54,125 nucleotides of DNA from a virus: the IMG/VR virus record IMGVR_UViG_3300021373_002388, positions 1 through 54,125 of that record. One strand, written 5' to 3'. The notes under the pieces were generated by a model. That model was given only the letters and a program-made list of their open reading frames with translations. It made no database searches and had not been told where the DNA came from. Position numbers and translations under genes: made by a program. Of this stretch, positions 45,836-54,125 are shown in pieces (the stretch's first letter is position 1; each line of letters starts with the position of its first letter).

Positions 45836-46117
45836 ATGAACCAATTAGAAATTAGGTTTCCCGAGCCGCCCACGGGAATACTGAAACAGCTTGATTTGCC
45901 ATTTCCGACTGTTACTCTTGCTAAAGATGATGTGAGGGTATACGGTCCTATTTGGGATGGTATGGAAGGAGAAGACGTATATATCTATAGTAATAGGCAT
46001 TTCGATTTAAGTTATAGGCTATATTCTATTATGGCTGAAGAGCTAAAGGACCATCATCAATTTATAGTAGATTGTTTCAATGAAGAACTGGCATATAGGA
46101 AGGAGTTGGCAAGATGA
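45836..46117 (+). CDS. Small hypothetical protein
   Basis: 93 residues from ATG 45836, 1 base after the previous stop, with a GGGGGAAAA site. Proline-rich start (FPEPPTG), then beta strands. ATGA-type overlap with the next gene. Confidence 0.7.
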   Translation: MNQLEIRFPEPPTGILKQLDLPFPTVTLAKDDVRVYGPIWDGMEGEDVYIYSNRHFDLSYRLYSIMAEELKDHHQFIVDCFNEELAYRKELAR

Positions 46118-46359
46118 ATCACATTGAGCGTAATTACATACCTCAAGTTGATGACAAGGTAGAAGTCCAGAATTTTTCCCACGAACACAATGGGAAACAA
46201 GGATGGGTAGTTAGTATTGATGGTGGTTATGTTTACGTCAAATTGCGTTGGCAGAGGCACCCATGGGATTTGGCATTACTTCAAAATGAGATAAGACCCT
46301 TGAAGAAAAATGGTAGAAATATCAAGAAACGCATTTTCCCAAAGCAACTAATAAAATGA
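46114..46359 (+). CDS. KOW/SH3-like small basic protein
   Basis: 81 residues. 'VDDKVEVQNFSHEHNGKQGWV' followed by 'GGYVYVKLRW' is the pattern of a KOW/SH3 barrel, which often binds RNA or RNA polymerase. Basic C-terminus. ATGA overlaps on both sides. Confidence 0.72.
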   Translation: MNHIERNYIPQVDDKVEVQNFSHEHNGKQGWVVSIDGGYVYVKLRWQRHPWDLALLQNEIRPLKKNGRNIKKRIFPKQLIK

Positions 46360-46556
46360 AAGACCGTGATTATGAAAATGAGGCAGTAGTTGATTATTGG
46401 GCGGAGCATTATCTTACTCAGCATTGTGTGTTGTGTGGAAATACTGGCTTCATAGATACCAGAGGCAGGGCTGTTACTCCAGCGGGACTGGATGTTGGGG
46501 CTAGGGTTCATTGTATTTGCCCTAATGGACAGTGCATAAGGAATATTGAAAAATGA
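46356..46556 (+). CDS. Small zinc-binding protein
   Basis: 66 residues. CVLCGNTGFIDTRG and CICPNGQC (about 25-28 and 54-61) form a zinc-ribbon pattern like small phage proteins related to the DnaJ zinc centre. It is followed by a 12-codon ORF (46553-46591). Confidence 0.75.
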   Translation: MKDRDYENEAVVDYWAEHYLTQHCVLCGNTGFIDTRGRAVTPAGLDVGARVHCICPNGQCIRNIEK

Positions 46557-46595
46557 AGAATATATACGACCCAAATTCGAAAAGGAACTAATAAA

Positions 46596-46862
46596 ATGAA
46601 AAAGTTTTATGTATCAGGTATCCCCCAGAAGAGAGGAAGACATAGAATAAAGTCTATAGAACCTATAGGACGATACGAAGACGAAATACTCAATACACAT
46701 ACAGTATACAGAGTATGGATAAACTGTGGTTATGTAGATTACTATAAGGGATGTGAACTGAAACTAAAAGACCATCAAGGTAAACCATGTACAGGGTATG
46801 AAGTAGATAGTACCATGAACTCATTACTAGAGGCATTAAAGATACTAGAAGAAGAGGATTAA
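46596..46862 (+). CDS. Small basic hypothetical protein
   Basis: 88 residues, Arg/Lys/Tyr-rich, with a site AAAAGGAAC and an upstream leader that repeats AACTAATAAAATGAAA seen before ATG 46356. Base use is unusually AT/AC-rich relative to neighbours. Last gene before the 1.6-kb gene-free region. Confidence 0.7.
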   Translation: MKKFYVSGIPQKRGRHRIKSIEPIGRYEDEILNTHTVYRVWINCGYVDYYKGCELKLKDHQGKPCTGYEVDSTMNSLLEALKILEEED

Positions 46863-47160
46863 GTGTCCCTGAGAAACACTGAGCGAAGCCCTCTCAAGCC
46901 CTCTCCGTAAAACCTACCAGTAAATAATACTGTACCATTCGAGACCCACCAGTAAAATCAACTGGAACCACTGGGTAAAACAGTAAGATTTACTGCTTAA
47001 ACTTTAGTTGAATTATGTGAAAAGCTTCTGGGAAAAACGTATAGACCTTATCTGGCTCATTATTTGTTTTACTCAGAAACACTCCAATTCTTTCTCATTA
47101 TACTCTATTTTTTCCTAAAAGTCAATGAAAAACCTCCAAAAACTCTCAGAAAAAACCGAA
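46863..47160 (+). other. Gene-free stretch with CAGTAA/TTACTG motifs
   Basis: No gene seen. It starts with a tandem GCCCTCTC-AA-GCCCTCTC, then several short CAGTAA/TTACTG elements (about 46918, 46951, 46985), one of which is a perfect hairpin (CAGTAA-GAT-TTACTG, about 46984-46998). The same core returns in the promoter region at 47246-47310. Probably protein-binding sites or decayed promoter repeats. Confidence 0.5.
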
Positions 47161-47170
47161 GTGTAAAAAC

Positions 47171-47199
47171 TTGACATTTGAATCAAAATTTGGTAAAAT
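47171..47199 (+). promoter_or_regulatory. Sigma70-like promoter
   Basis: TTGACA (47171-47176), 17-base spacer, TAAAAT (47194-47199). Dyad ACATTT/AAATGT spans the spacer. No gene downstream on this strand; RNA would run into the 32-bp repeat region. Confidence 0.65.
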
Positions 47200-47222
47200 G
47201 TAAGGTTTTTGAGAGTTTTACT

Positions 47223-47254
47223 TGGAGAATCTCTGAGTAAAACCTTCCAGTATA
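47223..47254 (+). repeat. 32-bp direct repeat, copy 1
   Basis: Identical to 47334-47365. Read on the - strand it begins with the -10 TATACT and the first ~26 bases of a transcript (GGAAGGTTTTACTCAGAGAT...). Contains the odd palindrome GAGAATCTC. Confidence 0.9.
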
Positions 47255-47277
47255 TCACAGTAAAATTTGCTTGTCAA
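47249..47277 (-). promoter_or_regulatory. - strand sigma70-like promoter M1
   Basis: On the - strand TTGACA (47277-47272), 17-base spacer, TATACT (47254-47249). Its -35 and the + strand -35 at 47281 form the dyad TGTCAAG-T-CTTGACA, so the two promoters are divergent. Confidence 0.7.
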
Positions 47278-47280
47278 GTC

Positions 47281-47310
47281 TTGACATTTAGTAAGTTTTA
47301 CTGGTATACT
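47281..47310 (+). promoter_or_regulatory. Sigma70-like promoter
   Basis: TTGACA (47281-47286), 18-base spacer, TATACT (47305-47310), then GGGAGTAGCGAC, a start region shared with the promoters at 48193 and 49363. Confidence 0.7.
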
Positions 47311-47333
47311 GGGAGTAGCGACTTGAGAAAACG

Positions 47334-47365
47334 TGGAGAATCTCTGAGTAAAACCTTCCAGTATA
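47334..47365 (+). repeat. 32-bp direct repeat, copy 2
   Basis: Perfect second copy of 47223-47254; again the left half of a - strand promoter (M2). Confidence 0.9.
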
Positions 47366-47388
47366 CTATAGAAAAACCTTTTTGTCAA
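47360..47388 (-). promoter_or_regulatory. - strand sigma70-like promoter M2
   Basis: On the - strand TTGACA (47388-47383), 17-base spacer, TATACT (47365-47360). The predicted RNA shares its first ~26 bases with M1 RNA. Confidence 0.7.
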
Positions 47389-47411
47389 GAGAAACTTTAA
47401 GAAAAAAATGC

Positions 47412-47443
47412 TTGACATTGGGGTTGTCTTTTAGTACTATAAT
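47412..47443 (+). promoter_or_regulatory. Sigma70-like promoter for motif copy A
   Basis: TTGACA (47412-47417); TACTAT at 47435 gives 17-base spacing, overlapping TATAAT at 47438. The predicted start is close to GCGGGAAC. Confidence 0.75.
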
Positions 47444-47446
47444 CTG

Positions 47447-47555
47447 GCGGGAACGGAGACACCGGAGTACAAGACACGGTGCTCGCCTAGAAAAAACATG
47501 GCATCCATATGTCAGGCAGGGTTCATCCTTGGACTCCGGTCTCTAATGTTCCCGC
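47447..47555. ncRNA. Small structured element, motif copy A (both orientations)
   Basis: A 109-base element bounded by perfect GCGGGAAC/GTTCCCGC ends, with a second inner pair ACCGGAGT/ACTCCGGT (47461-47468, 47533-47540) and CAAG/CTTG. RNA from either strand would form a long interrupted stem closing a ~54-base loop that itself has GCCT/AGGC pairing. It is flanked by convergent promoters (47412 on +, 47590 on -), so it can be transcribed both ways. No coding potential. Confidence 0.6.
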
Positions 47556-47561
47556 ATTATT

Positions 47562-47590
47562 AAGATACTATATGCAAGCCTTTTTGTCAA
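47562..47590 (-). promoter_or_regulatory. - strand sigma70-like promoter M3
   Basis: On the - strand TTGACA (47590-47585), 17-base spacer, TATCTT (47567-47562), followed 6 bases later by GCGGGAAC of copy A. Confidence 0.65.
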
Positions 47591-47625
47591 GTGTTTTGCA
47601 ACCTTATTTGCAACTAATATGCGAG

Positions 47626-47735
47626 TTTTATTTGCAACCTTTTTGCAGATTTTATTTGCAACCTTTTTGCAGATTTTATTTGCAAGTCAGATGCAGATTT
47701 TATTTGCAACCTTTTTGCAGATTTTATTTGCAGAT
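47626..47735. repeat. 24-bp tandem repeats with TTTGCAA cores
   Basis: Four units of 24 bases (47626, 47650, 47674, 47698) plus a partial fifth (to 47735) with unit TTTTATTTGCAACCTTTTTG-CAGA; unit 3 differs in the middle. Degenerate units extend left to about 47593. AT-rich, with regular 24-bp phase (just over two helical turns). Layout resembles iterons of replication origins or a partition site. Confidence 0.85.
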
Positions 47736-47990
47736 CATTCGAGGGTCGAGATGCAAAAACTTGGGTGTACCGGGCGAAACTGGGTGGGCCACAAGGGGGT
47801 AGCCTAGGAGACATACAGAGAAAAATCGGCAAAAACATCTGAGAAAAATTCGCAAAAAAACTGGGAGAACCCGGCGAAAAACTCAGCGGAGCCTCTGGGG
47901 AACTCGCGAAAAAAAGTCCAAGGCAATCGCGGGAAAAAAACGCATTGAACCGAAATCTGGGAGCACGTATGAGCTTACGGAAAAAACTGC
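47736..47990. other. Gene-free GA-rich stretch
   Basis: No gene seen. Repeated GAAAAA/CGCGAAAAAAA-type blocks (about 47820-47945) alternate with GC-rich patches. One frame reads as a broken Lys/Gly/Glu-rich peptide with an internal stop, which may be a decayed gene or only compositional bias. Confidence 0.4.
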
Positions 47991-48019
47991 TTGACACAAA
48001 GGGTCAAATATGGTACGAT
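47991..48019 (+). promoter_or_regulatory. Sigma70-like promoter for motif copy B
   Basis: TTGACA (47991-47996), 17-base spacer, TACGAT (48014-48019). Downstream hairpin GTCATT/AATGAC (about 48042-48058) and a GGGAG/CTCCC pairing, then motif copy B. Confidence 0.7.
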
Positions 48020-48074
48020 GTATGGGGTCTAGGTAAAATGGGAGTCATTACGTAAATGACGCCCACACTCCCCC

Positions 48075-48102
48075 CTTGGACTCCGGTTTCCTAAGTTCCC
48101 GC
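48075..48102 (-). repeat. Motif copy B (GCGGGAAC-N7-ACCGGAGT-C-CAAG)
   Basis: Read on the - strand, 29 bases downstream of the -10 of promoter M4. Differs from other copies mainly in the N7 linker and one base before CAAG. Confidence 0.85.
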
Positions 48103-48131
48103 TCGGTGTGTATCTCTTTATGTTGTAACCC

Positions 48132-48159
48132 ATTATAATGATCTAAACCGAAATTGCAA
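48132..48159 (-). promoter_or_regulatory. - strand promoter M4
   Basis: On the - strand TTGCAA (48159-48154), 16-base spacer, TATAAT (48137-48132) within the perfect palindrome CATTATAATG. Same block recurs at M5 and M6. Confidence 0.65.
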
Positions 48160-48192
48160 GCTTTTTTTTAACTTTTTTTAACTTTTTTTCTA

Positions 48193-48222
48193 TTGACTTT
48201 CAGGTTTTTTTCGTGTTATAAT
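48193..48222 (+). promoter_or_regulatory. Sigma70-like promoter for motif copy C
   Basis: TTGACT (48193-48198), 18-base spacer, TATAAT (48217-48222), then AAAGTAGCGTC. Hairpins GCGTC/GACGC and CGGGG/CCCCG lie downstream. Nearly the same 40 bases recur at 49363. Confidence 0.75.
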
Positions 48223-48271
48223 AAAGTAGCGTCTTGACGCCGGGGAAAAACACTCGGGCACCCTCCCCGTT

Positions 48272-48298
48272 TTGTACCCCGGTTTCCTAAGTTCCCGC
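48272..48298 (-). repeat. Motif copy C (GCGGGAAC-N7-ACCGGGGTACAA)
   Basis: Read on the - strand, 26 bases downstream of the -10 of M5; one base change (CCGGGG for CCGGAG). Confidence 0.85.
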
Positions 48299-48324
48299 AC
48301 GATTTCCCCTATGTCTTGAAAATC

Positions 48325-48352
48325 ATTATAATGATCTAGAAAAAAATTGCAA
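48325..48352 (-). promoter_or_regulatory. - strand promoter M5
   Basis: On the - strand TTGCAA (48352-48347), 16-base spacer, TATAAT (48330-48325). A LexA-type box lies 9 bases upstream of its -35. Confidence 0.65.
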
Positions 48353-48361
48353 GCATTATTT

Positions 48362-48381
48362 TACTGTTATTTTATACAGTA
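48362..48381. promoter_or_regulatory. LexA-type SOS box
   Basis: TACTGT-N8-ACAGTA: all 12 outer bases match the E. coli LexA consensus, with an AT-only centre. It lies between divergent promoters M5 and 48412. Confidence 0.75.
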
Positions 48382-48411
48382 GAAAATTTTTCTGTAGAAG
48401 AGTAAAAAAGC

Positions 48412-48440
48412 TTGACATGGTTCTTTTATTTCCCTATAGT
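48412..48440 (+). promoter_or_regulatory. Sigma70 promoter for the 48470 gene
   Basis: TTGACA (48412-48417), 17-base spacer, TATAGT (48435-48440). Perfect 8-base dyad ATGGTTCT/AGAACCAT (48417-48424, 48441-48448) brackets spacer and -10. Confidence 0.9.
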
Positions 48441-48469
48441 AGAACCATAAAACAACACGAGGTAACACT

Positions 48470-49303
48470 ATGAAACGCCAACAAGCCAAACAAATCACGA
48501 AAGCAGTATCAGAGAGAGACTATAGCAAGGTTATTTCCCTGATTGATATCGCACTAGCTACCGGGGAAGAAGGGCCTAGTTGGGTCCGCGATCTTACTAA
48601 GATCAAGGAATTTATTCAAGACGGAAAGCCCCGGTTTTCTATATTTGCCAAAGATGGAAACGGTAAGCTTCCATTCTTGGCGTTTTCCAGCATACCCGGC
48701 GAAGGTTTTTGTGGTGGTGCTGGTGAATGCCTGAATTTCTGTTATAGCTTTCGAGCATGGCGATACCCTGCAGCATTTTGTCGACAAGTACAGAATTCAA
48801 TCCTGTTACAGTCTAAATCCGGGCAAGATTCTATCTTGGCTGCGCTGGATAAGTTTAAGACAGATTCAATTGATTTCCGACTATATGTTGACGGGGATTT
48901 TACTGGGATTGAGGATATAGAATTCTGGTTTTCTGCTTTGATTGCCCGACCATGGTTAAAAACTTATGGTTATAGTAAATCATGGCAATCCCTGCTTGAT
49001 TACTCTGGGGAATACCCGGAAAACTACCAACTAAACCTTTCTAGCGGTTCAATATACGGGGACGATATAAAAGCCCGCGTATCTCAATTGCCTATTACTA
49101 GGGGTGAGTTTATAGCCGTTTCAGTAGGCCACAAGGTAAAATCCAGCGACCATGGGAACCGGGACCACCAAAAACTTCTGCGGGAAGTCTACGGGAAAAA
49201 AGCTTTTACTTGTCCGGGGCTCTGTGGTGATTGTACCAATAAGGGGCATGCATGTGGCTCTGATCGATTCAAGGGGCTAGATATCATTATAGCGGTTCAC
49301 TAA
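48470..49303 (+). CDS. Cysteine-cluster phage protein, possible SOS-linked early gene
   Basis: 277 residues. N-terminal cluster C-x5-C-x3-C (Cys81, 87, 91 in FCGGAGECLNFCYS) and C-terminal cluster Cys248, 252, 255, 262 (CPGLCGDCTNKGHAC) frame a central alpha/beta region (DFRLYVDGDFTGIEDIEFW). I recall similar proteins, of unknown function, in several phages (DUF7227-like); the cysteines may hold an iron-sulphur or zinc centre. ACGAGG site; monocistronic, with a strong terminator and a LexA-type box upstream. Confidence 0.82.
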   Translation: MKRQQAKQITKAVSERDYSKVISLIDIALATGEEGPSWVRDLTKIKEFIQDGKPRFSIFAKDGNGKLPFLAFSSIPGEGFCGGAGECLNFCYSFRAWRYPAAFCRQVQNSILLQSKSGQDSILAALDKFKTDSIDFRLYVDGDFTGIEDIEFWFSALIARPWLKTYGYSKSWQSLLDYSGEYPENYQLNLSSGSIYGDDIKARVSQLPITRGEFIAVSVGHKVKSSDHGNRDHQKLLREVYGKKAFTCPGLCGDCTNKGHACGSDRFKGLDIIIAVH

Positions 49304-49320
49304 AAAGGGGGGATTGTCAA

Positions 49321-49345
49321 GGGGCTCTATATGGGCCCCTTTTTT
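49321..49345 (+). terminator. Rho-independent terminator
   Basis: Seven-base stem GGGGCTC/GGGCCCC (with one G-T pair), loop TATAT, T6 run. Closely related to the terminator at 50685. Confidence 0.92.
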
Positions 49346-49362
49346 GACCCTGAAAAAAAAAT

Positions 49363-49391
49363 TTGACTTTTAGTTTTTTTCGTGTTATAAT
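49363..49391 (+). promoter_or_regulatory. Sigma70-like promoter for motif copy D
   Basis: TTGACT (49363-49368), 17-base spacer, TATAAT (49386-49391), then GAAAGTAGCGACC. Repeats the 48193 promoter. Confidence 0.75.
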
Positions 49392-49438
49392 GAAAGTAGC
49401 GACCTTTCGCCCCAGCTTCAATCGCCCACTCTCCCCGT

Positions 49439-49464
49439 CTTGTACTCCGGTTTCGTGTTCCCGC
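49439..49464 (-). repeat. Motif copy D (GCGGGAAC-ACGAA-ACCGGAGTACAAG)
   Basis: Read on the - strand, 23 bases downstream of the -10 of M6; linker ACGAA as in copy E. Confidence 0.88.
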
Positions 49465-49487
49465 TCGTTTCCTCTATGTTGTAACCC

Positions 49488-49515
49488 ATTATAATGATCT
49501 AGAAAAAAATTGCAA
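49488..49515 (-). promoter_or_regulatory. - strand promoter M6
   Basis: On the - strand TTGCAA (49515-49510), 16-base spacer, TATAAT (49493-49488), again inside CATTATAATG. LexA-type box 9 bases upstream. Confidence 0.65.
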
Positions 49516-49524
49516 GCATTATTT

Positions 49525-49544
49525 TACTGTTTTTTTATACAGTA
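49525..49544. promoter_or_regulatory. LexA-type SOS box
   Basis: TACTGT-N8-ACAGTA, AT-only centre, directly abutting the -35 of the + strand promoter at 49545 and upstream of M6; bound LexA would be expected to block the + promoter. Confidence 0.78.
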
Positions 49545-49572
49545 TTGACTTTTCCTGAGATATCCCTATAAT
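49545..49572 (+). promoter_or_regulatory. Sigma70 promoter for the 49608 gene
   Basis: TTGACT (49545-49550), 16-base spacer, TATAAT (49567-49572); leader CAACATCAACAAAACGAGGGAA. Confidence 0.88.
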
Positions 49573-49607
49573 GGTTTCAACATCAACAAAACGAGGGAAC
49601 AACAGAG

Positions 49608-49808
49608 ATGGATAAAATCGATCACGAAGCAATCACCATAGCCATTTTAGATGAGCATATCGCTCTTTTGAAACAAGCTTTTAAAGAAGCTGGGGGTGAG
49701 TTTCCCACGTTTAGCCCTGACCCTGTAAAGGAGCGTAGAAAGGTTTTGAAGCTTATCCGGGCAATGAAGCGAACTAGAGCGTGGTTTGTTTCCCCAGAGG
49801 AAGCCTAG
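49608..49808 (+). CDS. Small hypothetical early protein
   Basis: 66 residues, helical, acidic then basic (PVKERRKVLKLIRAMKRTRA). ACGAGGGAA site. Its promoter abuts a LexA-type box, so it may be SOS-responsive. No family recognised. Confidence 0.78.
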   Translation: MDKIDHEAITIAILDEHIALLKQAFKEAGGEFPTFSPDPVKERRKVLKLIRAMKRTRAWFVSPEEA

Positions 49809-49857
49809 TACACAGATAAAAAACCCTATCGAATCCGTGAAATTTCTTAAAAACCCC

Positions 49858-49885
49858 TTGACAAAATCTAGAAATAGGGTATTAT
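49858..49885 (+). promoter_or_regulatory. Sigma70 early promoter
   Basis: TTGACA (49858-49863), 16-base spacer, TATTAT (49880-49885); leader CAACAACCAACGAGGAAC. Confidence 0.86.
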
Positions 49886-49920
49886 TAAGACACTACCAAC
49901 AACCAACGAGGAACAACAAC

Positions 49921-50292
49921 ATGGCTTACATGAACCAAGAAACAAAGAAGAAACTGGCTCCCGGTATCAAAGCCGTTCTAGCTGAATACGGTATGAAGGG
50001 AACCTTGTCTGTTCGAAACCACATGGTCCTAGAAGTTAACATTAGGAAAGGGGCTCTAGACGTTGCTCAAGACGTAAAAGAGTCCCATGGTCGGGATTAC
50101 TTCCAAGTCAACCCTTACTGGTTTGACGAGCATTACACGGGTAAGACAAGGGAGTTTCTGGGTAAGCTTATGGCCGCAATCAAGGGCGATCAGTGGTACG
50201 ATAACAGTGACGCTATGACCGACTATTTCGACACTGCTTATTACTTCGATATCAATATCGGGGAATATGGAAGACCCTACGAAAAAATTTAA
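49921..50292 (+). CDS. Conserved phage/plasmid small protein
   Basis: 123 residues. MNQETKKKLAPGIKAVLAEYG, then a SVRNHMVLEVNI strand, 'YFQVNPYWFDEHYTGKTREF' and a C-terminal 'TDYFDTAYYFDINIGEYGRPY' form a widespread family on phages and plasmids, seen also in large polyvalent proteins. Fold is alpha/beta; function unknown. ATG 49921 has ACGAGGAAC upstream. Confidence 0.88.
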   Translation: MAYMNQETKKKLAPGIKAVLAEYGMKGTLSVRNHMVLEVNIRKGALDVAQDVKESHGRDYFQVNPYWFDEHYTGKTREFLGKLMAAIKGDQWYDNSDAMTDYFDTAYYFDINIGEYGRPYEKI

Positions 50293-50311
50293 ATTAATTG
50301 CTCTAGGGGTA

Positions 50312-50340
50312 TTGACAAGGGGCTATAGGTTCGATACTAT
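50312..50340 (+). promoter_or_regulatory. Sigma70 early promoter with dyad
   Basis: TTGACA (50312-50317), 17-base spacer, TACTAT (50335-50340). Dyad GGGGCTATAG/CTATAGCTCC (50319-50328, 50337-50346), one mismatch. Confidence 0.88.
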
Positions 50341-50372
50341 AGCTCCAACATCAACGAAACGAGGAAAACAAA

Positions 50373-50666
50373 ATGAACTCAGCGAAAAATCTTTTAGACT
50401 ACGCTCGAAAGCAAGGTTACAAAGTAGCCGTAACATGTGCCAGTGAGGGGGACGTATTACAAAAGTCTACCACTAGCTGGCCCAAGATCAAGGAAGCTAT
50501 CGAATCAACTGGATACGTTCACATGGTAGTCCGGGACACTATAAACAAAATCTCAGTTGCCACGGCACTGGTAATCGATCACGACGATACTGAGGAATGG
50601 GTTAGTGATTACGGGGTCAACGCTTTTATGGATGGATGGGAAAAACAAGTTTACGCACGGAATTAA
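50373..50666 (+). CDS. Small hypothetical early protein
   Basis: 97 residues, alpha/beta: 'LLDYARKQGYKVAVTCASEG' and 'SVATALVIDHDDTEEWVSDYG'. ACGAGGAAA site and own promoter and terminator. Similar small proteins occur in other phages without known role. Confidence 0.8.
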   Translation: MNSAKNLLDYARKQGYKVAVTCASEGDVLQKSTTSWPKIKEAIESTGYVHMVVRDTINKISVATALVIDHDDTEEWVSDYGVNAFMDGWEKQVYARN

Positions 50667-50684
50667 GTTGTTGTTGGTGCTTTG

Positions 50685-50711
50685 GGGGGTCTATATGGCC
50701 CCCTTTTTTTT
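50685..50711 (+). terminator. Rho-independent terminator
   Basis: Stem GGGGGTC/GGCCCCC with loop TATAT and T8 tail; paralogue of the 49321 terminator. Confidence 0.92.
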
Positions 50712-50749
50712 GGATTCCAACCACGTAAAAGACACGCAGGGGTGGTGTT

Positions 50750-50774
50750 TTGTACTCCGGTTTCGTGTTCCCGC
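50750..50774 (-). repeat. Motif copy E (GCGGGAAC-ACGAA-ACCGGAGTACAA)
   Basis: Read on the - strand, 11 bases downstream of the -10 of M7. Unlike copies B-D it has no TTGCAA-type promoter and no convergent + promoter close by. Confidence 0.88.
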
Positions 50775-50785
50775 TTTATGGTTTA

Positions 50786-50813
50786 ACTATACCAAACTCA
50801 CAAGAAAAGTCAA
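50786..50813 (-). promoter_or_regulatory. - strand sigma70-like promoter M7
   Basis: On the - strand TTGACT (50813-50808), 16-base spacer, TATAGT (50791-50786). Confidence 0.75.
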
Positions 50814-50846
50814 GGGTTTTTTCTGAAAAAAACTTAAAAAAAACTA

Positions 50847-50874
50847 TTGACTTTTCCTTTTATCTGGGTATACT
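50847..50874 (+). promoter_or_regulatory. Sigma70 promoter for the structured leader RNA
   Basis: TTGACT (50847-50852), 16-base spacer, TATACT (50869-50874). Expected start near 50881, which is the base of the first stem of the structured RNA. Confidence 0.86.
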
Positions 50875-50880
50875 ACTAAT

Positions 50881-51009
50881 CATAGAGTGATCGGATGGGA
50901 CGGGTAAATATCCGACTTGATGAAGGTGTTCCCCGCCTGACGCTACCCCGTAAAGGTAGGCCCTGAAGTGAACCGAGTGATCTTCGGAGAGCTTTAGGGG
51001 TCACTCTAT
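50881..51009 (+). ncRNA. Candidate multi-helix structured leader RNA
   Basis: Perfect closing stem ATAGAGTGA/TCACTCTAT (50882-50890, 51001-51009). Inside: TCGGAT/ATCCGA (50891-50896, 50910-50915), a GGTG/CGCC hairpin (about 50924-50937), CTACC/GGTAG (50943-50947, 50955-50959), and CCCTGAAG/CTTTAGGG (50961-50968, 50992-50999) enclosing CCGA/TCGG. A five-helix junction on paper. It forms the leader of the 51040 gene and could be a riboswitch, attenuator or small RNA. No known family identified by eye. Confidence 0.65.
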
Positions 51010-51039
51010 AACACCAACTTACAACGAGAGGATTATATT

Positions 51040-51255
51040 ATGAGAGAATTTTTTACCCGTAGACCTTTAGACAATGCCCCCATCGTAGTCAAAGAGGGTG
51101 TTGAGGGATTTTTCCCGATGCAGGATAAGACTGTTTCAGACGCTACTCTGAAGGCTTTGAATGAGGCCCACGGTAACACAGAGAAAGACGTTCTACACGC
51201 TGTTTCCTGCTCTATGTTTGGTTGGGATATCCCGGCTGCTGATTTGATTTCATAA
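51040..51255 (+). CDS. Small hypothetical early protein
   Basis: 71 residues. 'FTRRPLDNAPIVVKEGVEGFF' then a helix with HAVSCSMFGWDIPAADL. ACGAGAGGA site. The long structured leader upstream suggests its translation or transcription is controlled. No family recognised. Confidence 0.78.
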   Translation: MREFFTRRPLDNAPIVVKEGVEGFFPMQDKTVSDATLKALNEAHGNTEKDVLHAVSCSMFGWDIPAADLIS

Positions 51256-51261
51256 GGGGGG

Positions 51262-51290
51262 TTGACAAGGGGTCATAGGTTCGATACTAT
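51262..51290 (+). promoter_or_regulatory. Sigma70 early promoter with perfect dyad
   Basis: TTGACA (51262-51267), 17-base spacer, TACTAT (51285-51290). Perfect dyad GGGGTCATAG/CTATGACCCC (51269-51278, 51287-51296). Almost identical to the 53240 promoter. Confidence 0.92.
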
Positions 51291-51324
51291 GACCCCAACA
51301 TCAACAACCAACAAGGACAACAAA

Positions 51325-51549
51325 ATGAGCGGTAACTTTATGACAATCAGATTCCCGGTTGAGGTCACCATGGAAGCGGATAGTCTATACGGTATGGACA
51401 AGGAAGAAGCCAAGAAAAAAATAATCGAGGCTTGTCTAAAACACTTTTTACTTGGCTTCACCAATGTCCACGATGACACTTACAGTGATCTATGCTCTGT
51501 TGAGATGGTCGATATCGATAACGCCACAATGGAAAACTGGAGTTTATAA
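51325..51549 (+). CDS. Small hypothetical early protein
   Basis: 74 residues. Beta strand 'FMTIRFPVEVTMEAD', helix 'KEEAKKKIIEACLKHFLLG', then acidic end: a small alpha/beta fold. ACAAGGACAA site. 1-base overlap with the next gene. Confidence 0.8.
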   Translation: MSGNFMTIRFPVEVTMEADSLYGMDKEEAKKKIIEACLKHFLLGFTNVHDDTYSDLCSVEMVDIDNATMENWSL

Positions 51550-51917
51550 TGGGAACTTACGTATTCAAAATCACAGGGAAAAAGACCACCCTAAAAAACG
51601 GTCAGAAGGCTAACATAGCAGTCTATGCCTACAAGCCTTATGGATTCTTCTCGTCCAATGAAGCGACTGTCCGGGCGAATAATCAAATGCACCGAGAGAG
51701 CGGCTGCTATACGGCTGACCGGTATGTGAAGGACAGCCAAGGGTTCACTGGGTTAGTTGTGTTAGGTCATTATGATAAAGGGAAATTGTCCCCGGACTCC
51801 AGAGACCCAGAGAGCGCCCTGCCGTGGCCCAGAGAATGGGAGGGGTCATTCTATGACGATTCTTTTAACGGGATGTTGTACAGACACCATAACCAACAGG
51901 AGGGAACTACTGTATAA
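51549..51917 (+). CDS. Hypothetical early protein
   Basis: 122 residues, Tyr/Ser/Gly-rich with strands 'YVFKITGKKTTL', 'QKANIAVYAYKPYGF'. Translationally coupled to the previous gene; the only two-gene cassette with this promoter type besides 53303-53880. No family recognised. Confidence 0.75.
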   Translation: MGTYVFKITGKKTTLKNGQKANIAVYAYKPYGFFSSNEATVRANNQMHRESGCYTADRYVKDSQGFTGLVVLGHYDKGKLSPDSRDPESALPWPREWEGSFYDDSFNGMLYRHHNQQEGTTV

Positions 51918-51925
51918 ATGAACAG

Positions 51926-51953
51926 TTGACACGGGGGCCCATTGTGGTACGAT
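51926..51953 (+). promoter_or_regulatory. Sigma70 early promoter with dyad
   Basis: TTGACA (51926-51931), 16-base spacer, TACGAT (51948-51953). Dyad GGGCCCAT/ATGGGCTC (51935-51942, 51952-51959), one mismatch. Confidence 0.86.
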
Positions 51954-51986
51954 GGGCTCTCAATTCAACAACACGAGGAAACGAAA

Positions 51987-52331
51987 ATGTGTAGCAAAAA
52001 AGATTTACAGGATTACTTAAACAAGCCCTGCACGGATTCGGACTTGGTGCCGGGTACGGTTCGACCAATTCGGCTTTATGATGACATGTCATTATCGGTT
52101 CAGGCATCAGCGCACCACTACTGTACCCCCAAGAAAGACGGGGCTCAGTATACCTCTGTAGAGGTTGGAATCTCTCATGATGATTATTTCATTTTACAGG
52201 ATGATCTGAAGGATTGGGATTTCCGATTGGTCGCTAAGGACTACTGGATAGCTGGCTGGGTATCAATCGACAAGGTAGCTGATTTTATATCCGAGTATGG
52301 AAACGGCGATGCCCAGTGTGGGAGGTTCTAA
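51987..52331 (+). CDS. Hypothetical early protein
   Basis: 114 residues from ATG 51987. Beta-rich 'MSLSVQASAHHYCTPKK', 'YTSVEVGISHDDY' followed by a W-rich part (DWDF, WIAGWVSIDKV). ACGAGGAAA site; monocistronic. Similar small proteins are frequent in phage early regions; no function known. Confidence 0.78.
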   Translation: MCSKKDLQDYLNKPCTDSDLVPGTVRPIRLYDDMSLSVQASAHHYCTPKKDGAQYTSVEVGISHDDYFILQDDLKDWDFRLVAKDYWIAGWVSIDKVADFISEYGNGDAQCGRF

Positions 52332-52338
52332 AAAAAGC

Positions 52339-52367
52339 TTGACAAGGGGGGGTAGATCGACTAATAT
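52339..52367 (+). promoter_or_regulatory. Sigma70 early promoter with dyad
   Basis: TTGACA (52339-52344), 17-base spacer, TAATAT (52362-52367). Dyad GGGGGGTA/TATCCCCC (52347-52354, 52365-52372), one mismatch. Confidence 0.86.
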
Positions 52368-52404
52368 CCCCCTGAGTTCAACGAAAACTAACGAGGAAAA
52401 ACTT

Positions 52405-52605
52405 ATGAGTATGTCACTTGAAATCTGGAGACCGAGAAACCAAGAGTTCTATGCCCGATCATTGGGTACTGGTACGGTATACCTTACCATCAACTATCGG
52501 GACAATGACAGTTCCCCGGAGAACTCAGTAACGATTTACTTTGAGAATGAGGCTGAATTAGAAGCCTTTAAAAAGGGAATCAATAGCTGTGAAATAGAAA
52601 CTTAA
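52405..52605 (+). CDS. Small hypothetical early protein
   Basis: 66 residues: strands 'VYLTINYRD' and 'NSVTIYFENEAELEAFKKGI', an alpha/beta mini-domain. ACGAGGAAAA site; own promoter and terminator. Confidence 0.78.
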   Translation: MSMSLEIWRPRNQEFYARSLGTGTVYLTINYRDNDSSPENSVTIYFENEAELEAFKKGINSCEIET

Positions 52606-52622
52606 TTCGTTGGTGAAGCAGA

Positions 52623-52653
52623 GGGGGGTAAGGAAACCCCCCCGAGCTTTTTT
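52623..52653 (+). terminator. Terminator-like hairpin
   Basis: GGGGGGT/ACCCCCC stem (52623-52629, 52636-52642), loop AAGGAA, then CGAGC and T6. The spacing between stem and T run is unusual, so efficiency is uncertain. Confidence 0.7.
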
Positions 52654-52665
52654 CAGGAGGTAGCG

Positions 52666-52899
52666 ATGAGAATTCCCAAAATCCAATGGGTAAAAGATGA
52701 GGACGATCATTTCTCACTTGAGGGTCGTTTCGAAATCGATGCGGCATACTGTGGTCGCACTCGACCAACGCACTATTATTTGGACGATAATGTAACCAAT
52801 ACCCGTGAAAGGTTTGAGGATTTGAACAGTGCTAAGGATAAGGCTAATCGAATTATTGCCGGGGTGTGGATGAAACGAATGCCCGAAAAATTCAAATAG
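52666..52899 (+). CDS. Small hypothetical protein
   Basis: 77 residues. 'HFSLEGRFEIDAAYCGRTRP' and 'FEDLNSAKDKANRIIAGVW' suggest a small alpha/beta protein. It has a strong AGGAGG site but no promoter of its own, so it depends on read-through of the 52623 hairpin. Confidence 0.75.
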   Translation: MRIPKIQWVKDEDDHFSLEGRFEIDAAYCGRTRPTHYYLDDNVTNTRERFEDLNSAKDKANRIIAGVWMKRMPEKFK

Positions 52900-52903
52900 G
52901 GGG

Positions 52904-52932
52904 TTGACACGTAACCCCTAATCGATTAAGGT
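52904..52932 (+). promoter_or_regulatory. Sigma70-like promoter
   Basis: TTGACA (52904-52909), 17-base spacer, TAAGGT (52927-52932), a weak -10. Palindrome TAATCGATTA lies in the spacer. Leader CTAACAACACGAGGAAAC. Confidence 0.72.
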
Positions 52933-52963
52933 AAGACCACACTAACAACACGAGGAAACATCA

Positions 52964-53236
52964 ATGAAACAAGCACAACTTATTAATCACCTTAACAAAC
53001 TGTTCCCAGAAGCCCGCGCCGTGGCAAGAGAAGAGTTCGACGGTAGCAATGTTGGCGTTTGGTTTAGAGGCAGCGAAGACTTTTTAGCTAATGGTGAACG
53101 AGTATTTGACCATTATGAAGTAAGCTGGAACTTTGGAATGAACCCTGCTATTGAGGTAGTACTAGAGAAAGCTGGCTGGTACAGTGAACCATACGATGCT
53201 GGTACGGCAATGGCATACCCGAAAAATTCAAATTAA
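52964..53236 (+). CDS. Small hypothetical early protein
   Basis: 90 residues, alpha/beta: helix 'LINHLNKLFPEARAVAREEF', strands 'NVGVWFRGSED' and 'HYEVSWNF'. ACGAGGAAAC site. The tail codons (YPKNSN) resemble the end region of the 52666 gene at DNA level (CCCGAAAAATTCAAAT in both), suggesting recombination between cassettes. Confidence 0.8.
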   Translation: MKQAQLINHLNKLFPEARAVAREEFDGSNVGVWFRGSEDFLANGERVFDHYEVSWNFGMNPAIEVVLEKAGWYSEPYDAGTAMAYPKNSN

Positions 53237-53239
53237 GAG

Positions 53240-53268
53240 TTGACAAGGGGTCATAGGTTCTATACTAT
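53240..53268 (+). promoter_or_regulatory. Sigma70 early promoter with perfect dyad
   Basis: TTGACA (53240-53245), 17-base spacer, TACTAT (53263-53268). Dyad GGGGTCATAG/CTATGACCCC (53247-53256, 53265-53274), as at 51262. Confidence 0.92.
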
Positions 53269-53302
53269 GACCCCATCATCAACAACCAACGAGGAAACAT
53301 CA

Positions 53303-53440
53303 ATGAAACAACTTACTATTCTAATGCCAGATCATGAATTGGACATGATCATCAAGTTGATTGAGGCAGCCGAGGAAGCGGGCCTTATAGGTGAAGATGG
53401 TTTCACTGTACAAGTTGAAGATTCGGCGGGGGTACACTAA
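53303..53440 (+). CDS. Very small early protein
   Basis: 45 residues from ATG 53303 (ACGAGGAAAC site): a strand 'KQLTILMPDHE' and an acidic helix. Stop overlaps the next start by 1 base. No family recognised. Confidence 0.72.
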   Translation: MKQLTILMPDHELDMIIKLIEAAEEAGLIGEDGFTVQVEDSAGVH

Positions 53441-53880
53441 TGAAAAACTCAGAAATCATTAAAAACATGGTTAAAATAGCCGAACAAATTCAGACCCAGC
53501 TTGAATCTTTGGAAGAGCTTAACGAGGATTTTGGGGGTAACCTGAATTCAGAGACAGAGCAGGAACTACATGAAGAGCTTTATAGAAGCATTAACGCCAT
53601 CAACCAATGGAATGAAACAACTATTTATAGCATGAATAGTCACATTCAAAAGGGTAAGCGCAGAACCACAGAGAGGCGTTACAGGAGCCTAGACAGGCAT
53701 TGTGACATGGAACTAAGCTATGAGCAGGCTCTATATGAAGAATTCGCTTCACAGGCTCTCTCACAGGGTGTAAGCCCCGACCAAATCCGTGATGCATACA
53801 TGAGAGACTTACCGGGAAAAACCGAAAGCCTCACATGGGATATTGAGGAAAATGTGGAATCTCGGAGGATTGATGCTTGA
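53440..53880 (+). CDS. Helical hypothetical early protein
   Basis: 146 residues, helical, Glu/Asn/Arg-rich, with a basic middle (KGKRRTTERRYRSLDRH). Its stop lies in the -35 of the next promoter. No family recognised. Confidence 0.76.
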   Translation: MKNSEIIKNMVKIAEQIQTQLESLEELNEDFGGNLNSETEQELHEELYRSINAINQWNETTIYSMNSHIQKGKRRTTERRYRSLDRHCDMELSYEQALYEEFASQALSQGVSPDQIRDAYMRDLPGKTESLTWDIEENVESRRIDA

Positions 53881-53905
53881 CATTTGGTAATTCCTCCCGT
53901 ATAGT
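53877..53905 (+). promoter_or_regulatory. Sigma70 early promoter
   Basis: TTGACA (53877-53882), 17-base spacer, TATAGT (53900-53905); leader CATCAACGGAAACGAGGAAA. Confidence 0.88.
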
Positions 53906-53939
53906 CTAGACACCATCAACGGAAACGAGGAAATACATT

Positions 53940-54125
53940 ATGAAAAACCCATTAGGCAAAGAACAAACAAGGTTCGCAACACCTGAGAGCGCAGACGCTC
54001 TGCAGGCTTACGTTGGAAGATTTTCAGGTGGTGAGGCAGTAGCCGCCAATGTCATCATGATGATGACTTGGAACTACGCTGTATCACTGATCGACGAGGC
54101 CCTTAAGGATGGTCGATTAATTTCA
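53940..54125 (+). CDS. Hypothetical early protein (3' truncated by window edge)
   Basis: First 62 residues of an open frame beginning MKNPLGKEQTRFATPESADA. ACGAGGAAA site and own promoter, same cassette layout as its left neighbours. Too little is visible for a family assignment. Confidence 0.75.
   Translation, partial: MKNPLGKEQTRFATPESADALQAYVGRFSGGEAVAANVIMMMTWNYAVSLIDEALKDGRLIS

Follow-up and report, generated by a model that had tools for sequence, protein, structure and literature searches.

In phage HK022, the put sites follow divergent promoters, putL behind PL and putR behind PR (PMC9378689), and comprise about 70 nt arranged in two stem-loops (PMC9378689). The phage element described here resembles put in being a putatively structured RNA located close to the 5′ end of early transcripts, with two copies on divergent transcripts, but differs in that its predicted transcripts are often non-coding or antisense. 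Phage small RNAs offer a second comparison, being likewise short, non-coding, intergenic and driven by host promoters; the element, however, has no Rfam match or clear terminator, is kept across subfamilies and often has Fur-like boxes 3′ of it. The T4-type origins, which combine a promoter with an R-loop, share with it a promoter-driven transcript, here found with repeats and in a T4-like phage. In contrast to these origins, the element has no model match in T4, lacks evidence from skew or an initiator, and stands in several tandem copies in the window.

The window, meaning the whole stretch of 54,125 nt analysed (IMG/VR record IMGVR_UViG_3300021373_002388, positions 1 to 54,125), is a 54-kb record from a T4-like phage whose DNA polymerase is up to ~67% identical to those of marine contigs and ~47% to those of cyanophages. 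A preliminary description of this DNA placed six copies of a short motif at 47447 (+ strand) and at 47555, 48102, 48298, 49464 and 50774 (all − strand), and all six, here copies A to F, are present at these sites. The core GGGAAC-N3-10-ACCGG occurs six times against 0.10 expected in shuffled sequence, and none of 100 shuffles reaches six; chance does not explain the copies. A covariance model run over the window returned exactly these six and nothing else, at 42–59 bits, the six being part of its training set. As originally reported, the two halves are conserved around a variable linker, of 6, 7, 7, 7, 5 and 5 nt in copies A to F. Because linkers of 5, 6 and 7 nt separate the conserved halves, no common reading frame is possible and coding is excluded, in agreement with the earlier view that the units encode no credible protein. 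The size of ~26 bases first given to the motif was too small, the conserved unit extending over ~55 nt, while the proposal of a promoter-linked conserved element, probably a non-coding RNA, is strengthened by the present analysis.

A sigma70-like promoter precedes every copy on its own strand, also as described, with the best-scoring −10 ending 6, 6, 29, 26, 23 and 11 nt before the motif in copies A to F; an overlapping TATAAT, taken as the −10 of copy A, would put its gap at 3 nt. The putative RNA element of copy A (47441..47497, + strand) follows a promoter at 47412..47440 (+; TTGACA-17-TACTAT), pairs GGCGGG/CUCGCC and CACCG/CGGUG in its minimum-energy fold, and has 24-bp tandem repeats 3′ of it at 47604..47732 (+). 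Copy B (47505..47561, −; promoter 47562..47590, −, TTGACA-17-TATCTT) is convergent with copy A. Copies C (48052..48108, −), D (48247..48304, −) and E (49415..49470, −) each follow a TTGCAA-16-TATAAT promoter on the − strand, at 48132..48159, 48325..48352 and 49488..49515, respectively. Copy F (50725..50780, −) has the top score in the window, 58.5 bits, and its promoter lies at 50786..50813 (−; TTGACT-16-TATAGT). Facing promoters on the + strand, previously claimed for copies B to D, were found for C (47991..48019, TTGACA-17-TACGAT) and D (48193..48222, TTGACT-18-TATAAT), and also for E (49363..49391, TTGACT-17-TATAAT); the promoter that faces B is copy A's own, and F has none. Promoter-like sites are enriched throughout 46.0–51.5 kb, with 29 against 10.9 ± 3.4 in shuffles. 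Further strong facing promoters, without the motif and with a repeated GGAGAATCTCTGAGTAAAACCTTCCAGTATA unit, occur at 47097–47390.

Copies D and E belong to duplicated cassettes of ~200 bp, identical at 158 of 201 aligned positions and including both facing promoters, and a gene for a GP88-like protein (PF17338, E 2.3e-12) lies between them at 48470–49303. The − strand hairpins GGCGUCAAGACGCU and GGCGAAAGGUCGCU of cassettes D and E (48228–48241 and 49398–49411) show an apparent compensatory difference, so some RNA structure may be kept there, on either strand. No convincing terminator follows the elements of the window, where only weak hairpins were seen, after D and E. The predicted transcripts of the five leftward copies are antisense to flanking genes. 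Among near relatives picked by DNA polymerase, none of 30 records matched the element, most of these being short fragments in which the locus may be missing, and searches started from the GP88-like gene and from a histidine-phosphatase-like gene gave no relatives. A link to the neighbouring protein family phrog_10415 was dropped, as six records encoding this family are without the RNA.

The element is not peculiar to one T4-like phage; it forms a family that is widespread among large lytic phages. Scanning viral contigs with the pattern yielded 23 stretches, of which ~10 have a promoter just 5′ and a longer common tail; about half look like chance matches, most of them GC-rich and without a promoter 5′. 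A 49-nt consensus built from the promoter-linked stretches matched 66 of 50,697 phage records by blastn, comprising Vequintavirinae (Mydovirus, Seunavirus, Certrevirus, Henunavirus, Vequintavirus), Vibrio phages, Citrobacter phage Tr1 and Stephanstirmvirinae, and a second consensus brought in phAPEC8-like phages. These matches are mostly intergenic or unannotated, or lie beneath unnamed small ORFs. None of 84,980 bacterial and archaeal genomes contains the strict pattern, which suggests that the element is confined to lytic phages. The model gives no match in T4, HK022, Melnitz, Pectobacterium phage POP12 (Straboviridae) and four other records; the other T4-like records tested lack the element, as T4 does. 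One weak additional model match (E about 0.02–0.1) is found repeatedly in phages related to one another, at 4MG 61344, GAP31 89657, EC152 68409, FENT2 75701 and Mydo 61636. Rfam 15 gave no match at E ≤ 1 for window positions 46000–54125 and seven related loci, ARAGORN found no tRNA or tmRNA in the window and eleven related loci, and no description of the element was found in the part of the literature covered. As judged by these tests, the element represents a new RNA family within the already known class of promoter-linked phage RNAs.

At the level of sequence, the family stands directly 3′ of promoters: for most copies in isolated phages, the distance from the end of the −10 hexamer to the motif is 9 nt, which would place the motif near +3 of the RNA if the distance to the start is the usual one. 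A fold with an outer stem, AUAGCGGG.AC / GU.CCCGCUAU, around the hairpin GG-A-G(U)-ACAAN-(A)C-A-CC is likely, and the inner hairpin probably carries an ACAA loop. In 39 aligned copies, pairing reaches 73.9% of cells, compared with 37.9–43.7% in controls in which one side was slid, and covariation is 0.236 against 0.065–0.128, with none of 500 shuffles as high on either measure, in an alignment that had been fitted to the proposed structure and thus favours it. The same pairing test on a MAFFT alignment gave 74.6% against 35–43%, for a structure picked by eye from those sequences. Pairs with changes on both sides and further pair types were no more numerous than in shuffles in either alignment. 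RNAalifold returned no pairs and no common structure for an alignment of 26 sequences; for this reason a hand-named structure was tested, which weakens the evidence. In the window, the 5′-half sequence is preserved in copies C, D and E, which have lost the inner stem. The outer stem is kept outside the model's training set, as GCGGGCA/UGCCCGC in L161 and GGCGGGCA/UGCCUGUU in L147, and the unpaired positions of the element are also conserved. Support for the fold is moderate. Binding of CsrA through GGA triplets and mimicry of 16S rRNA are not claimed, as short G-rich words are common and do not occur in all variants.

The arrangement of copies is regular in many relatives. In 11 of the 12 named Vequintavirinae records examined, small genes form a block flanked by two copies that point outward and lie 7–11 kb apart. 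Outward pairs at this distance also occur in Citrobacter phage Tr1 and in contigs of L016, L020 and L006; POP15's second copy scores weakly (E 0.009). A single copy is present in Serratia phage Kashira, phAPEC8, the contig of L021 and the four Vibrio phages, and inspection by eye shows an extra divergent copy beside one of those in NHEP1 and in typing phage 14. The genes between paired copies are small, of unknown function and early by position, and sigma70-like promoters have been placed in such regions of a related phage (PMC7344957). In 4MG, one copy reads into ~0.6 kb without genes and then into opposite-strand genes, to which it would be antisense, and the other has the same sense as its neighbours. 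No conserved gene is consistently found 3′ of the element. One copy per pair has, just 5′ of it, another conserved segment, non-coding and ~90 nt long (ACGCCACCCCACGGCGAAAAGGCGGGGCTAACGTACC...GATCGCCGGTAGTTCGTC), with a promoter-like stretch before this segment (L110 4784–4960, with equivalents in L113, L016, L020, L130, L131, L127 and L129); it has no Rfam match, and a tRNA-like nature was rejected, ARAGORN finding none. Another conserved stretch (GAGATCTCC..TTAAAACGGG..TAGGGTACA..GCTTAAAACGC..) stands 3′ of the second copies in L146, L161, L147 and L020.

The most likely reading, advanced tentatively, is that the element constitutes the 5′ domain of a non-coding transcript that is made early and acts in trans on a conserved host factor. 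Host sigma70 RNA polymerase would make such a transcript from each copy, and the element would occupy roughly positions +3 to +55 of this RNA in isolated phages; copies in the window begin 6–29 nt after the −10. In 4MG the predicted 5′ end would lie 2–3 nt before GCGGGAAC. The RNA itself would be the product, its domain probably folding into the outer stem and inner hairpin. Its target, engaged as infection begins, would be a host protein or a host RNA that is conserved throughout the gammaproteobacteria; RNA polymerase and a post-transcriptional regulator are candidate partners. A trans-acting RNA product is suggested because unrelated large phages conserve the element, mostly between genes and with no gene consistently 3′, and because copies in the window and one in 4MG are antisense, cassettes are duplicated and unpaired positions are conserved. 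The duplication of cassettes D and E is as expected if dosage of the RNA product matters. The 9-nt spacing to the −10, the pairing and covariation above controls, the outer stem kept outside the training set and the frame-breaking linkers also speak for this reading. Against this reading, the regularity with which the copies of Vequintavirinae pair outward is more suggestive of an arrangement that works in cis, and the null result of RNAalifold, the loss of the inner stem in copies C to E and the lack of a convincing terminator also count against it.

Regulator-like boxes accompany the element in many phages. Fur-like boxes (TGATAAT-N-ATTATCA, at least 11 of 14 positions matched) lie 3′ of it in most enterobacterial and Vibrio phages, with 1–3 sites against 0.01–0.15 in shuffles, and those of enterobacterial phages often lie at +55, +84 and +113 from the motif start. 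They are absent near the motif in L004, L005, L014 and L019, as may be expected if the hosts differ. Hena1, SNUABM01 and typing phage 14 gave none in the copies tested, nor were any seen by eye in the window. On the 5′ side, eleven enterobacterial copies have a perfect GTAAA-N5-GTAAA starting 57–66 nt before the motif, and three Vibrio phages have a CRP-like site, matched at 9 of 10 positions, that starts 63 nt before it. GTAAA-N5-GTAAA corresponds to the CpxR consensus; all these boxes are matches to consensus sequences and represent putative binding sites of Fur, CpxR and CRP. DnaA-box-like TTATCCACA sites occur 3′ of the motif in L004 and L023. Farther 3′, several phages carry phage-specific direct repeats that differ in sequence from the 24-bp repeats of the window, and in L019 near-perfect tandem repeats of 46 bp follow the element (949–1178).

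In enterobacterial and Vibrio phages, the promoter of the trans-acting RNA would be wired to host regulators through the CpxR-like or CRP-like site 5′ and the Fur-like boxes 3′. It is possible, but rather doubtful, that the locus senses the host, a CpxR- or CRP-tuned promoter, the RNA domain and Fur boxes in register together letting host stress and iron set its output. With the same reserve, this RNA would act on a core host machine and constitute a previously undescribed family.

An unlikely alternative is that the nascent RNA acts in cis, modifying RNA polymerase for antitermination or anti-pausing as HK022 put does, with outward copies bracketing the early block. The position of the element at the extreme 5′ end of predicted transcripts would suit this, as would the outward pairs 7–11 kb apart in 11 of the 12 named Vequintavirinae and in Citrobacter phage Tr1, and no dedicated protein would be required. 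The layout of divergent early promoters, as judged from predicted starts, is present in most Vequintavirinae and absent in the window, where A and B converge. This convergence and the antisense course of the window's five leftward copies argue against a put-like role. So do the copy of the 4MG pair that precedes opposite-strand genes, the absence of a strong terminator 3′ of the window copies, the absence of a match to model R1 in the HK022 record, and the proposed fold itself, one nested stem where put has two tandem stem-loops.

Titration of Fur, CpxR, CRP and DnaA by an array of DNA sites, the motif being one more protein-binding site, is improbable. The excess of Fur-like boxes over shuffles and their frequent +55/+84/+113 spacing would fit such a sponge, as would the perfect GTAAA-N5-GTAAA sites, the CRP-like sites and the DnaA-box-like TTATCCACA of L004. 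The motif, however, shows RNA-like covariation and lies just inside the predicted transcript, boxes are few per genome, and the CpxR-like and CRP-like sites stand where activators of the element's promoter would sit; moreover, Fur-like boxes are missing beside the motif in L004, L005, L014 and L019 and, by eye, in the window. A primer for an R-loop replication origin, with the downstream repeats as iterons, is the least credible proposal: direct repeats in several phages and the window, outward pairs suited to bidirectional priming and DnaA-like boxes in L004 would agree with it, but GC skew in four genomes, which seems to track the coding strand, shows no turn clearly tied to the element, six copies in 3.4 kb would be odd, and no conserved adjoining initiator gene was found.

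The trans-acting RNA is retained as the favoured, if tentative, explanation. An unannotated RNA element is common to phages of E. coli, Klebsiella, Salmonella, Erwinia and Vibrio and to a marine-type T4-like phage, and such breadth suggests that these phages share a target within the cells they infect. As 4MG grows on E. coli K-12 MG1655, the question is directly testable. If the regulator boxes are functional, lytic phages would use a non-coding locus to read the iron status and envelope stress of their hosts.
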